A DNA stretch of 64,000 nt from Cheilinus undulatus (taxonomy: Eukaryota > Chordata > Actinopteri > Labriformes > Labridae): assembly GCF_018320785.1 (NCBI RefSeq), contig NC_054867.1, positions 51,001,355 to 51,065,354 of the forward strand, in the 5' to 3' direction. Every line of letters begins with the position of its first letter. Position 1 is the first letter of the stretch. Below the pieces are notes generated by a model that saw nothing but the letters and a program-made list of their open reading frames with translations, searched no databases and had not been told where the DNA came from. Below are positions 35,398 through 44,300 of the stretch, piece by piece. A program made the position numbers and the translations under genes.

Positions 35398-38300
35398 TCA
35401 GGAAAGTTTCTTGGTGTTTTCAGTGCTGACTTCCCGTGCAGTTAGGTAGTTCATGATGAGATTAGCAGCTTTCCTGGGACGCTCCAACGCCACAGAGTGA
35501 CCACAGTTTTCTATCACCTCCACCTGACAGTCTGGCAGCGCCGCCTTCAGCACCGCTGCCCCGGACGCGTCGACCACCTGAGGAGAAGAGAAAGAATAGA
35601 CAGATTAGTAAGCATGGGGGTTTTGGTGATGTCATGATGATCTGCTGACACTACTTGGTGTTATGCCCATTTTTAAATCAACCTTCCAGCAACTGTCTTA
35701 AGAGGCCTTTGCTTCCAGGAGCAACTGGCCACTTTTTGTGTGTTCTGATTTTATCAGCAGTTAGTTAAAAACATTTACCAAAGCTTCAGCTCTCCATTTG
35801 TTACCTTTATCTAAAATCTGACTGGATATTTGAGAAGTGACAATGGGGATGGATTTAAGAGGAAATTATTAGCTGCGCTTCCATGCAGCAGTCTTGAAAT
35901 TATACATATATCACATGTATCTGTACCTGCAATAGTTAATTAACAAATATAAGACTTCACTCTTAAATCCCCATGCCAACCTCCTTGTATCTTTCCTCTC
36001 CCAACCCCCCTCCACTGACTGACAGGTGAACTGCAGAAAAACGTCCTGATGCGAGGGACAAATATGAACAAGCACAATAGGAAATTTTCTGGGTAGGTTT
36101 CCCTGAAGTGCTGCAGGTGTGAAAAGGACTTAAGATTCATTTACCTGGTCTTCTTTCCCCCAGATGACCTGTGTGGGTGTTTTGATCAGGTGCAGGTTTT
36201 CCTGCAGTGAATGACGAGACTTCTCCCCGACGATCTCCATGAAAACTGAAAAACACAAAAATGCACACACAGACAGAGGAAATATTAAAGCATTCTGTAA
36301 GCACAGCCAGGAACATTTAGGCTGTTTAAAAAACAACATTCCTAGTATTTGCTGCTATTTCTTAAAACTGGTGTTTGAAAAGAGGCCGGGCAGGACAGTG
36401 ATGCTTTCGTCAACTAAAACTATGACTAAAAATGCTCTTCATCAGCCTTTTTTTCCTATGACAAAAACTAGACTAAGACTAACAAAAATAGATCTGTAAT
36501 GACTTAAACTGACGAAAAGTAAGTTTAGTTTTCGTCGAGATAACTAAAACTAAACTAAAATGTTATGTAGTTTTCGTCAGACATTCAAAATCAGTGATAT
36601 TTCTCCACTGTGGGTAAATTTTTCAAAAAACAATGCATCTGTATCTATTCTGCCTCTTAGCTGTAGAAAGCAGGGACCCCAGGTTTGGCACAGAACACAT
36701 TACCATGATTTGGTACCAGATTAAGGCAGAAAATAAATGCTTGGATTTAAAGTAAAGACTAAAATGTGAAGACTTTTTATGGACTAAAACTAGACTAAAA
36801 TGTTTTGAGTTTTCGTCGACTAAAACTAGACTAAAACTAAAATGCCTTTCATGTAAGGACTTAAAATAAGACTAAAATAAAAAATAGCTGCAAAAATTAA
36901 CACTGGATCAGAATTATTTTTACTGTCATGGTTTAGGTACAATGTAAATTATTGCTTTTTTTCAGCCTAAAAACTAGAACAGCTTTGTTTCAATTGTTTG
37001 AATAAGTGCTGCAAAAATGTGCATTATTATGATGACAACACATAAATAAGATTGAAGTGCAAAGATAAAAACAGGAGCAGCTCAGAACACAAGAAAGGTT
37101 CAAGGTGATTTTGAAAAAGAGTCCCCAAAAAAAAAAAAAGGTCTGAGCTTTGAAGATAGATATGAGGACTAACCTTCTTTATAGAAACCGTTGTTGGGGA
37201 TCCTGTTGTCAAGGAGACCCCGTAGGAGCTGAAAAAACACATCAGACACTATTTCACTGGTGTTTTCTTAAACTCGCAGCAGCAACTGCAGCTTAAAGGG
37301 TCCCTGTTGTTCCTAAGACTGTGCTGAAAGGAGTATTTGCCTCCTTCCTGATCTCTTGTTTTTGTGCATATTTGTCACACTTAGCATGGGTAAATACAAA
37401 ATGCAGTTTTTAAATGATTTCATTTATTAAGGGGAAAAACATCCACCCAAACCTACCTGGCTCTATGTGAGAAAGTCATTGGCCCCTCTACACTAATACA
37501 TGCTTTTTTCCACCCTTAGTGGCAACAACTGCAAACAAGCATTCTTGATAATTGGTAATGAGTCTTTCACGTCACCGTGGAGGAATTTTGGCCCACTCTT
37601 CTTCGCAGAATTGCTTAAAATTTAGCCGAATATTAACGACCTGAGGTCATGCCACAAAATAAATGCATGAATTAACAGTGATCAACCACATTTTTTGGAA
37701 AGCTGAGATCAACCTCACTAGCCTCACCCAGGCCTGATTACTGCCAGGCCTGTTGAACCCAGAAATCACTTTAAGTGAAGCAGGCTAAAAGATCTCAAAA
37801 AGCAACACATCATGAAGCCATTTAAAGGAATTCAAGAACAGATGACAAACAAAGCCACTGACATTGATCAGTCTGGAAAGAATTAAAAGCCATTTCCAAG
37901 GCTTTGGGACTCCAGCCAACCATAGTGAGAGCCATTATCCACAAATGGAGAAAACTTGGAACAGTGGTGAACCTTCCCAGGAGCTGTCGGCCTACCAAAA
38001 TGACTCCAAGACTGCAAAGCCAACTCATCCAGGAGGCCCCAAAGGAACCCAGAACCACATCTAAAGGCCTGCAGGCCTCACTAAGGTCGGCGGACATAAT
38101 TCAACAATAAGAAAGAGACTGGGCAAAAATGGCATCATGGGAGGACAAAACCACTGCTGACCAAAATGAACACAAAAGCTCGTCTCATATTTGACTAAAA
38201 ACCTTCTGATGATCCCCAAGACTTTTAGGAAAATACTTGCTGGTGGGAACTTTAATGGAAGTTACATCTGGAGTAAAACTAACACAGCATTTCATCAAAT

Positions 38301-41300
38301 GAACATCAAACTACAGTTAAACATGGTGGTGGCTCACGTGGGTAATGCAGCGGGACAATGATCCCAAACTGACCAGCAAGTCCACTTCTGAACGGCTTAA
38401 AATCCAAGCTGAAGGTTTTGTCAGAGTTTGGGCTTAAATCTGACTGCAAAGAGGAGTGGGCCGACATTTATTCACAAAGATGTGAAAGACTTATTGACAG
38501 TTATCAGACGCTTGCAGCTGTTGCCACCAAGGGTGGAAAAAGCAGTTAATAGGTTTAGGGGGTGATAACTTTTTCTCACAGGAGCAGGTAGGTTTGAGGG
38601 GCTTTTCTTTTAATAAATAAAATCATCATTTAAAAAGTGCATTTTGTATTTACTCAGTTTATCTTTGTCTAATATTAGTTTGATGTTCTGAAACATTTAA
38701 GTGTGACAAATATGCACAAAAAAAAAAAAATCAAGGGGCCGATACTTTTCACAGCCCTGTACCTGTTTGGGGAGGTTGACCGGGGAGTAGCAGCAGAGTC
38801 TCAGCATGTCTTCGAGCTCCTTGGTCGTGGAAGGGATCAGAGGGATCGACTCCTCCTGCTCACTTTTCTCCAGCTCCCTCAGACGGCTGATGAACTGAGA
38901 CTCTGTGGGATAAACCAGACCTGCAGCACACAGAGGAGAGGAGGAGGATCTGTTACTCTTGTTAAGGTATCAGACTTCACTGAGATCTCATGTCTGCTGG
39001 GTTCACCTGCCGGGCACATCAAGGTGACGCTGCACAGGACATCAGGGTGCTGAGCGGCGTAAACTCCAGCGACGTTTCCTCCCATTGATGTCCCAACCAG
39101 GTGGAAGGGTGTTTTATCCAGACCGATACTCTGAACAAACTGCACAGAAAATGAAAAACGATGACGGTATCAAAACTTTTAATGCTTCAATTCAACATCT
39201 TTAATTGAAGAGTTGCTTTAATGTTGTTCTAAGCCTGGTAATCTCACTTTGCTTTAAGGTGTGCAGGTTATTTTACATTTACTCCATATTTTCCAGAAAT
39301 GTTTCACTCATTGTTAAGTTTACTGTCCTTGATTCAGAGAAAAACTACAAATTTAGCCCAGAGGATGTAAATAATCAAGAAAATGTTTCTGTCTGGGAAA
39401 GTTTACCACCGCCTCCATCAGCACTGACCTGGTGTATTCGGCGGACCTGGCCCTGGATGCTGTAGTCCTCCGCTCCGGTCCGGCTTGTTCCTTCATGACC
39501 CGGCATGTCCACACATATCACGTGCTGCTCTTTAGGGAGAAACTGGAGGAGAAAACAAACACATCCAACTTAAAAACAAGATTAACGTCACATTCTGACA
39601 AATTCTGAGCTTGTTTTAGGTTCAGAATTTATTCAGATCAAAAATAAATTAAGTCTGCACATGATAGAAGGCAAATAGACTGAGCTTTATGGGTAGTTAA
39701 TACACATTATACTCTTAAATACAAAAAATAAATGGAGGTGTAGATGTGGTGAGTAAGCCGCTTGTGGGCACCATTGGGCAGGAAGGATGGTTAACACAAC
39801 CCAGGTCTTGCTCTGGATGTCCTTCACCTCACCAGGGGCACAGGAAAATAATCTGCTGAAAACATAACAAAGTCCACACCATACAGGGTGGATGTGGCAC
39901 AGTCTGGTGTACTGTCCGTGTGGGTAGTAGGTTTGCCTGTGGTCTGTGAATGTCCTAAGGGCACAAAAACTCCCAGTGGTCTTTGGGCGTACAACCAGGA
40001 GTGAAAACACCCGGACAAAAAGGATGCCAAGTGACACGTGTTGACATGTGTTGAGCTCGACTCTGCTCCTTTCCACAAACCCTGGGTTGTGGCAAATTGG
40101 ATCCTGCGGTAAATCCTTAGCACCCTTGTCATCCACATAAAACTGGGTTACATCTGCCCGTCTGAGATAAAAACTACTCCCTGTTCACTCGCAAAATACC
40201 ATTTTGAGCCATATATGAGGGCTCACCACAGCCTTTTCCTTTGAAGTTTTGTGCAAAAGCAATCAGTGTTTCATCATTAAGGTCTGTTTTGGCAATAAAA
40301 AATCTATCTAGTGTGTAACACCTTATGAGGAGATTATCCCAAAACGAGCTGAGGAAATGGCCAAAAATTCCCACTAAATTTTGCTAGATTTTCAAAAATA
40401 GCTGACTTGTAGTTGGGAATTGACCATGACGACAATAGTTTTTTTTTTTTAGGTGTTAGGATTCTGGGTATGTCTACCAAAATTTCTCTTTCTAGGTGAA
40501 ATCACTCCAGGCACTGCAACTTTGAAAGATGTTAGGGGGCACTGTTAAGCCAATTTCCCTAATGAACACAAAAAAATATCACATTTTTCACCAGGCCTGA
40601 TGTGCCTGCCGAGTTTGGGGAGTTTCCAAACTTGTTTAGGCGTTGAAGTTTGAGTAAATGTTTAGAAGGAAATAATCCTTTGGACTGAACAGAGTTCTTG
40701 ACCCTTGGTTTCTCAGGCCTAACATATAAGAATATGACTTCTCCTAACATAGGAGAAGCCATTTTTTAACTTATGTAGAGGATTTCAGTGAAAAAATTCC
40801 ACTCATTGGAGATTTAAATTGTTGACCATCCTTCCTCTTATCTTCCTTTTTCTGTATATCTATATTTAGTGTTTAGGCAAGAAGTAGGACCTTTTTCTAC
40901 GTGTAAAATTTACCCTAATGAGGGGCAGCCACATGTCTTTAGTGGCTGAGAAGCCATGCAGCAGCAGCAGTGATGGCGTGGCGCCCCCTGGCTTCCCTCT
41001 GCTGGAATAACAGAAGCGATAGCTTCCACTGTGAGAGTATCGGATCACCAGCCCGATCTTGTGTCGCCAGTACCTGTGGAGGAAAACAGCAGAAGCACAC
41101 TCAGTTATCACATGGACCTGTCAGCTCATACTGCAATATGTTAAAATATTTAAAGCTAAAAATGTAAACATCACAATCCTTTTAGCCTAAACTCTTATCA
41201 GAGAGTGCTTGGCTGAAATAAGTTCATCTGCACCAGTGTGACTTGTAGTTTAACTCTTATAAGACTCTTTTCTATAGTTGTTGTTTTTGGTACCCGACAT

Positions 41301-44300
41301 TGGGTAATTTCCTTTTTCTATTATCACTTTAACCTCCATAGAGCAGCAGCACTAACAGCTAAAAATATATCTTATGTTCAGCAGTGATTTATCTTCTTAA
41401 AATATAAATATCCGTGTCAGACAGTCTGCTTGGACTCACAGAGTTCCAGTTGTACCCCTCATTAAAAGTTAATGTGAATCAGTTCATGGACATAACACGC
41501 CTTTTTTATGTTGCTAAATTTTAACATTTACAGACTTTTACAAATTTGAGATTTTCATGCACAAAGCTTTGGACAAATACACTATTATATGCCTCTGACT
41601 CAGCATTTCATGTGCATCTGTGAGCGTGAGTAACAGCCATCAGAAACTGCAGAGAGGCCAACATGCAAGATTTCTTTTACATCTGAGACAAAGTCCAGCA
41701 GACAAGGTCACGCTATCAGCACTTCACAATAAAAGTCTTCACAGTGCACAGATAAATGCATGACTGGTACAAAAACACGACTTTGAGATTATCTAAAAAC
41801 ACAATTTAAAGGTAGAAACAGTTTTTATATAGCACAGTACCAAAGAACACAACTCAAACACAATCTTTGGTTCAACTGCCAGAAAATCTGTTGTTAGTTA
41901 CTGAGTTAATTTGATTTAAACAAATCTGGACCGTATGTTAATAAAAATGATATATTTCAATATTTAAAACATTCTTAAAGTATTCATTCAATCCTCATCA
42001 TCATTGAACTGTTGGATTAGCATTCAGGTTTGCAGTTTATCTCTAGTGTGAGTAATTCATCACAGGATGTTCATGCTTTCTTAATAAGATAATTCTACAT
42101 GAAACACTTTTTTATGTCTGTTGATGACTGATCCCAGCAACAGGCCGTAGCTGTTGCATAGAGTCATCATGTATGAAACTATCTTTTCATGTTTTTGCTC
42201 CATTGTGTTGGTCATCATCTTAGCCACAGAGGCATTTTTAAACTAGAGATGAGATGAAGATCAGATAATATGTTTCCTAACAGAGCTCAATCTGTTTTTA
42301 ATTTCTGGAAAATGAAGGCAAAGAAAGAAGTAAACTCTAAATATTCAACCAAAAAAGACTCAAATGAGTCAGCATCCTCTGAAGTCCTCTAGGGTTGTTT
42401 TTTAAACCTCTGAGCACAGTAGAGGACAAACCACAGCAAACGGGTATTTGAAGCTGCTGGTGCATCTGGCGTCCCAAGAACCTCTGGATGCAGGATCCTC
42501 CAGAGGCTTGAGGATGTGCATAAAGCTGTATTTCAGCCACCCTTAACCAGTTCCCACAAGGAGAAATTATTTTAGCGGGCTCAGAAATATAAAGTGACTA
42601 ATGATCAAACAGTTTAATTCACTGATAAATGCCGTGCTACACTGGATGGTCCAGATGGCTGTAGTTCTGGATGGTTGGTGGATGGCCGCCATGTCCCAAC
42701 AAGGCTGTAATGTCAGCGAGGAAATGGTGGAGTCATGTTTTGGGGCTGGAATCACAGGAAGTGAGTTGGTAGACCCGTTTAAGGTGCCCGAAGGTGACAA
42801 AATGAGCTCAGCAAAATATAAGGAGTTCCTAACTACCCATTTTCTATCATCCCATGTTGTATTAAATCCAACTGAGGCATCGGCAGCTATTGGCATAAAG
42901 GGAGAAAAGATCACGGTGTGGCCCTATCATTCCCTGACCTTTAACCCTAGTGAGAACCTGAGGAGCATCCTTAAAAGGAAGCTCGATGAGAATGGACAGA
43001 GGGCAGTTTAGCTCTAAACTGCAGCTCTGGGAGGAATTCCTTAAAGGAAATACAGGCAGAATCTATACAAAGACTTAAAAGTTCAATAGATGAGAGAGTT
43101 GTGATGTCGAAGAAGGTCTTCGGTGTTAACATGGAACTAAATCCGGAAAAATGTTTTTAACTGAAACAGCTATGATTTGAGGAAAATTACCTCCTTATGC
43201 AAAGAATTAGAACAGATTTCTGTTTTTAATCCTTTGGAAACTGTTGAGTGTTTTCAAACTCTGTTTTAATAATAATTTGATTGGAATTTTAAGATGTTTT
43301 GCAAAAAATACCTTGGCCATCATTGATAATTTTGTTGAATAGGATCCAGATTACAATAAAATTGTTGAGAATTGAAAAATCCTATTAAGGGACAATTATC
43401 TCGACTACTTAGGAAAAAATGAACAAAGATTATATAAACAAAGATTACTGTTTAGCAATTGGGAATTTCTACTCATTTGGGATTTACGACAGATTTGTTA
43501 AACACTGGATGAGGAGAATAACTGCACAACATTGTTCTGAATCTGGATGACAAGCTTTTTGAACCTAAGGTAGGCCGACCACATTTTTGTTGAGTTTTAT
43601 GTAGATACCAACCCAATAAACAAAAGAGATGACACATCCCTATCCACTCCTGCTGTCTGTCCCACTGCTCCACACATGCACGCTCCTCCTCATTCCTCTC
43701 TGCTTGTGTTTTGACAGATTTTACAGTCAGTGGAGAAATATAATGGATTTTAAGTGTCTGACAGTCCCTTGCATTATAGTCTCATCTTGTCATAAAAACT
43801 GAAAATACTATTCAGCACAGTTTTTAAAATAAAGCTTCTCGTTGTCTTTTTCATGAAAAAAGGTTGCTTGTGAACATTTTTCCATTCTATTTTTGTAGAC
43901 AAAAAACACTAAAGCAAAGCTTATGATGACGATAATCAACATGTACATCATGTTGCATTAAAACAGACTTTAAATTAGTGATTCAGACTTTACAATGACT
44001 AAGAAATGTCTATCTAAATAATACGAAGGGCTGATTTAAGATTGTTCTTTGTACAAACTGATTCACTACCTCGTTTCCACATGTGCATGTTGCTGATGTC
44101 CACGATTCTGTAACATATAGATGGCACCTCCAAGGAAGTGCACTCCTTTACTAATTGAAAGAATCCTCATAGAAACTACCACAAGGAGAGGATAATTTTG
44201 TTCCTTTTTCTCCATTCAGTAGTTTGGAATATGTGGTTAGAGAATAACTTAGACAAAAACAGGACTAATGCTGCATATCAACAAAAAGTGAAGAGGATAA

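Follow-up and report, generated by a model that had tools for sequence, protein, structure and literature searches.

Can a splice donor outlast the insertion of a transposon between its first bases, and what is it made of afterwards? This question is raised by an intron of abhd6, whose product is a lipid-splitting enzyme, within a window of 64,000 nt of Cheilinus undulatus (contig NC_054867.1), i.e., the whole stretch of DNA that was analysed. An earlier note had described the donor of this intron as host G plus TA target duplication plus the terminal repeat of a Tc1-like element. In the following, slashes mark exon or element boundaries.

The gene and its donor

Seven 3' coding exons of abhd6 were located, with the exon preceding the donor under study being the fourth among them:

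40914..41073, minus strand, coding exon, donor AGG/GTAAAT
39429..39542, minus strand, coding exon, donor CAG/GTCAGT
39007..39139, minus strand, coding exon, donor CAG/GTGAAC
38763..38920, minus strand, coding exon (exon 6 of the earlier note) with 3' end CCCAAACAG, identified by its translation and human ABHD6 match
37174..37228, minus strand, coding exon 3' of the element-bearing intron, LLRGLLDNRIPNNGFYKE, donor AAG/GTTAGT
36145..36245, minus strand, coding exon, donor CAG/GTAAAT
35398..35577, minus strand, terminal coding exon with TGA stop

The 52 residues of exon 38920-38763 match residues 137-187 of human ABHD6 (7ots_A, E 1.4e-10). Once the seven exons are joined, the frame is intact: 299 codons are stop-free and align with human ABHD6 residues 3-298 (E 4.3e-120, 403.3 bits), ungapped at the junction 38763-37228. 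Since the frame joins at 38763 without a gap, the donor at 38762 is the donor required by the protein. Splicing of abhd6 at 38763-37228 is thereby supported indirectly, and we infer that the donor is used in vivo.

Two other introns of the gene drew attention to themselves. By eye, the intron 5' of the exon at 41073 appears to contain another decayed Tc1/mariner-type element (about 42400-43250). The intron between 37174 and 36245 contains a repeat-rich stretch (36380-36900) on AGTCGACGAAAAC and TTTTAGTCTAGTTTTAGT motifs; two such motifs gave four and eight loose matches.

On the minus strand, positions 38785-38755 read CCCCGGTCAACCTCCCCAAACAG/G-TA-CAGGG, where 38763 is the final exon base; the bases directly after the exon are GTACAGGGCTGTG. 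The donor is thus composed of three parts:

38762, minus strand, intron +1, a host G
38760..38761, minus strand, intron +2/+3, the right copy of the TA target-site duplication; TA flanks the termini of sister copies too
38757..38759, minus strand, intron +4 to +6, the three bases CAG with which the terminal repeat opens, as in the family terminus

That is, the junction letters together with the family termini confirm the anatomy given in the earlier note (host G, TA, CAG). Position +5 is A, not the usual G.

The element, its family and the left junction

The intron is divided as follows:

37319..38759, plus strand, decayed Tc1-like element of 1441 bp, delimited by inverted repeats and genome copies, with a transposase remnant running opposite to abhd6
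37317..37318, minus strand, probable left target duplication, now TC after decay, placed by alignment scan
37229..37316, minus strand, remaining host intron, which together with GTA would give a pre-insertion intron of 91 nt

Terminal inverted repeats are present, with 74.7% identity over a 225-column alignment of the arms and 96% in the outer 28 nt; the TA duplication is intact to the right of the window copy and decayed to its left. The transposase remnant of the window copy yields an HTH_SB match (E 1.2e-05, 25.4 bits) under the curated cut-off of 43, and the profile search gave no domain match for the transposase piece at 38321-38434. Sister copy L020 matches DDE_3 over its cut-off (E 5.1e-08) and HTH_Tnp_Tc3_2 under its cut-off (E 0.0022). 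The spacing from the second D to E, 34 residues in DD34E elements, would be 34 by an eye count on a QDND...NPIE motif assembled from several decayed copies, if the catalytic D of QDND is that of Sleeping Beauty. A Tc1-type HTH plus DDE transposase is seen for the family and incompletely for the decayed window copy, and the intron element is classed as Tc1-like.

A first look for relatives of the element in the genome gave 9,525 candidates, of which 40 were scored; 20 copies were fetched. Both trimming motifs occur in 12 of the 20, and L028 was left out for its length, such that 11 copies were aligned. Two of these (L020, L027) had been trimmed at an inner motif and thus lack the true right end, which reduces the right-end count to n=9. 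The termini of the family read TA/CAGTG...CACTG/TA, with TA at the left terminus in 9/11 and at the right terminus in 7/9 copies; the motif used for trimming the 11-copy alignment itself contained TA, and a TA-free motif gave TA beside the same termini. The 29-base terminus TACAGTGNNGTGAAAAAGTATTTGCCCCC has 417 exact matches in the genome vs. 0 for the backwards-read pattern. No match of the terminus was found in the viral contig collection or the genome contig collection searched.

To the left, the duplication is less sharply preserved. A scan of element starts from 37308 to 37323 places 37319 on top (score 25.5), followed by 37316 and 37320 with 24.5 each, i.e., the preference for 37319 amounts to one point under one scoring scheme. 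A MAFFT row also backs the left duplication at 37317, using a window stretch already cut at that position; a wider alignment placed the gap otherwise. With 37319, the pre-insertion donor would be GTATTA and the intron 91 nt long, which we prefer slightly over the conditional proposal of the earlier note, i.e., a TA duplication at 37314-37315, an ancestral GTAGGA and an ancestral intron of 88 nt. That placement has an exact TA in its favour and the second-best score (24.5, tied with start 37320), but it trails 37319 when TA is counted and more so when it is not (22.5 vs. 25.5). We therefore consider the proposed 37314 junction rather unlikely and infer the empty-site letters +4 to +6 from the 37319 junction. 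Under either left junction, the reconstructed empty-site intron begins with GTA.

The age of the intron relative to the element is informed by another abhd6 gene of this genome (C11:30887401-30887550, L030/L031), which is 44% identical in exon 38920-38763 and matches human ABHD6 with E 2.5e-131 and 440.5 bits (vs. 403.3 for the window copy). It shares the intron position: the same phase-0 intron is seen there, 128 nt long, with donor CAG/GTCAGG and without the element. A search of the genome with the exon found two places only, the window and C11, with no second allele or retrocopy; no relative of the exon was found in the genome contig collection searched. Introners elsewhere in eukaryotes are described (PMC9860276) to use target duplications and their own ends as splice sites, such that the intron itself might have been made by the transposon. 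The shared C11 intron excludes such an origin, and 88 nt of non-element intron with an acceptor of its own remain in the window gene. We rejected this candidate on the paralog intron, the host acceptor and the 88 nt of host intron, and its probability is practically negligible. On this comparison, the abhd6 intron is older than the element.

Donor strength and consequences for the gene

Donor strength was computed as ViennaRNA duplex energy against the U1 5' end. These energies leave out U6, exonic signals and U1 modifications; they are -7.1 kcal/mol for GTACAG, -7.2 for GTATTA, -10.7 for GTAGGA and -11.6 for the consensus GTAAGT. All six predicted U1 pairs of the abhd6 donor are held by the exonic CAG and the intronic GTA. 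The five other located abhd6 donors range from -6.2 to -8.4 kcal/mol and the donor of the C11 paralog has -7.4. The other donors of abhd6 span a range that includes GTACAG, so the present donor is ordinary for the gene. Given the near-identical pairing of GTATTA and GTACAG, little donor strength was probably lost through the insertion. That is, the model predicts that U1 pairing probably hardly changed with the 37319 junction and that the site was weakened with the 37314 junction. The scoring suggested in the earlier note, GTACAG against GTAGGA, thus does favour GTAGGA (-10.7 vs. -7.1), but the preferred ancestor is GTATTA with -7.2.

The expectation that no alternative donor is at hand is true in part. 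Within exon 38920-38763, the best other GT is weaker (-4.6 vs. -7.1 kcal/mol). Deep in the intron, in contrast, three stronger donor-like sites are found within the element: 37456 (CAG/GTAGGT, -11.3 kcal/mol), 37727 (-9.8) and 37995 (-7.7). The first of these would close a candidate pseudoexon:

37457..37528, minus strand, candidate pseudoexon of 72 nt in the element with an in-frame TAG, acceptor-like ...TGCTTGTTTGCAG, donor CAG/GTAGGT at 37456

It is therefore conceivable that the insertion damaged the gene, i.e., that partial use of the donor, exon skipping, the cryptic donor at 38863 (AAA/GTGAGC) or a pseudoexon cut its output and that the C11 gene compensates. The strong donor-like sites in the element (-11.3 kcal/mol at 37456), one of them preceded by an acceptor-like stretch, and the drop from -10.7 to -7.1 under the 37314 junction are in line with this, as is the second abhd6 gene: with another ABHD6 in the species, some loss of output at the window gene could be bearable. 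On the other hand, the cryptic 38863 donor pairs less well (-4.6) and its use would cause a frameshift (counted from coordinates), and the 299-codon frame is intact though the insertion is old. We regard such damage as possible but not probable.

How old the insertion is can be bracketed from the decay of the element. Relative to the family majority, 233/1271 sites are changed in the window copy, plus 23 indels, where the majority is weighted to younger copies: 9/11 are 5-9% from it, whereas L014 and L027 lie at 16-18%. When the 11 copies are taken one by one, the window copy shows 20.6-22.7% difference, no less against the old L014 and L027. Half of the distance to an old copy (10-11%) and the distance to the majority (18%) bracket the age, which suggests a decay of roughly 10-20%.

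In simulations, the 897-nt coding sequence was allowed to decay neutrally to levels of 10%, 12% and 18%, with substitution level and indel rate borrowed from the element (indel rate about halved at 10% and 12%) and a transition share chosen by us. Here, 226, 139 and 35 of 4000 runs stayed stop-free, respectively, and 0/4000 runs came through clean, i.e., with neither a stop nor an indel, at any of the three levels. This suggests that abhd6 was probably kept by selection after the insertion, with the GTACAG donor in place. Because the gene was most likely kept by selection, this argues that the GTACAG donor works.

Preferring an insertion with a functional outcome, we propose the following course. 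Tc1/mariner insertion duplicates TA. An old Tc1-like transposon would have inserted at a TA that formed +2/+3 of a pre-existing abhd6 intron of about 91 nt, and the TA duplication would have rebuilt CAG plus GTA at the new junction. Only the bases from +4 onward would have been exchanged, for the fixed terminal CAG of the element. CAG/GTACAG is probably still used, such that the element leaves with the enlarged intron of 1,534 nt. Altogether, we hold it very likely that an old Tc1-like insertion at +2/+3 took place, that GTA was rebuilt by the TA duplication and that the resulting donor probably remains in use.

Recurrence and known systems

If about 100,000 GTA donors are assumed, random insertion at TA would strike one of them about 1.3 times per 1000 insertions. 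The family has at least hundreds of copies, as the 417 exact ends are a lower bound that misses decayed ends. With hundreds of copies, and with other TA-duplicating families, one or more donor strikes are expected before selection. As an event, the abhd6 insertion is not improbable.

In the genome, 25 exact AGG/TACAGTG... junctions were found, and no coding exon ending at the junction was obvious by eye for any of the 25. In two of them (L076, L084), an open frame contains an acceptor-like stretch, and neither frame matched a Pfam family. When 20 open frames (10 from an earlier set of 16 sites, 10 from the 25) were compared with Pfam, 19 gave no match to E 0.1 and the remaining one gave TEX13B_C with E 0.055, below its cut-off. 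None of the 25 was thus recognisable as a second donor case. However, the abhd6 exon itself has no Pfam match, i.e., the test is insensitive and provides little evidence against further donor cases. As a separate observation, L082 (junction at 1503) has a family copy directly after an acceptor-like TTTTTTGCAG/G, within a 76-codon open frame without Pfam match.

A more general reading is that any insertion of a TA-duplicating transposon at +2/+3 of NNN/GTA is a safe landing, which restores GTA, supplies CAG at +4 to +6, is tolerated and has replaced the tails of donors repeatedly in fish genomes, with abhd6 as one old fixed case. We hold this with low confidence and think it improbable in this breadth. 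The wider interest would lie in the recurrence of such safe landings at donors; if there are many such sites, they would form natural experiments on what is required at +4 to +6 of splice donors. The abhd6 case gives a concrete picture of how a cut-and-paste element may lie within an essential splice signal and leave it workable, as the TA duplication restores those donor bases that weigh most for pairing.

Searches of the open-licence literature on the topic listed matches on introners, Tc1 splicing and repeat exonization. Among the matches listed, none reported a TA duplication that preserves a donor, and of the eight listed by one of the searches, none mentioned abhd6. One of the sources, PMC4188875, concerns an intron within a fungal transposase gene and has no bearing on abhd6. 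The abhd6 case is a real, well-resolved old insertion, and the type of event is already known.

Three systems come close to it. Repeat-derived splice sites, e.g., in Alu exonization, are alike in that a host transcript would use splice-site bases derived from a repeat; they mostly yield new alternative exons, whereas abhd6 had part of an existing donor exchanged at a conserved coding exon. Tc1 insertions of C. elegans are reportedly spliced from mutant pre-mRNAs, with new insertions into exons and the use of cryptic sites. As is probably the case in abhd6, a Tc1-superfamily element within a gene is spliced out near its ends, but the abhd6 insertion is old, struck a pre-existing donor and kept GTA. 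The respective study (Rushforth and Anderson 1996) appears in the reference lists of PMC2447444 and PMC4120734, and the latter refers to it where transposons inserted into coding regions activate cryptic splice sites. Introners (PMC9860276), finally, resemble abhd6 in that their splice sites are part target duplication and part element, but they create many new introns, whereas at abhd6 one existing intron was enlarged.
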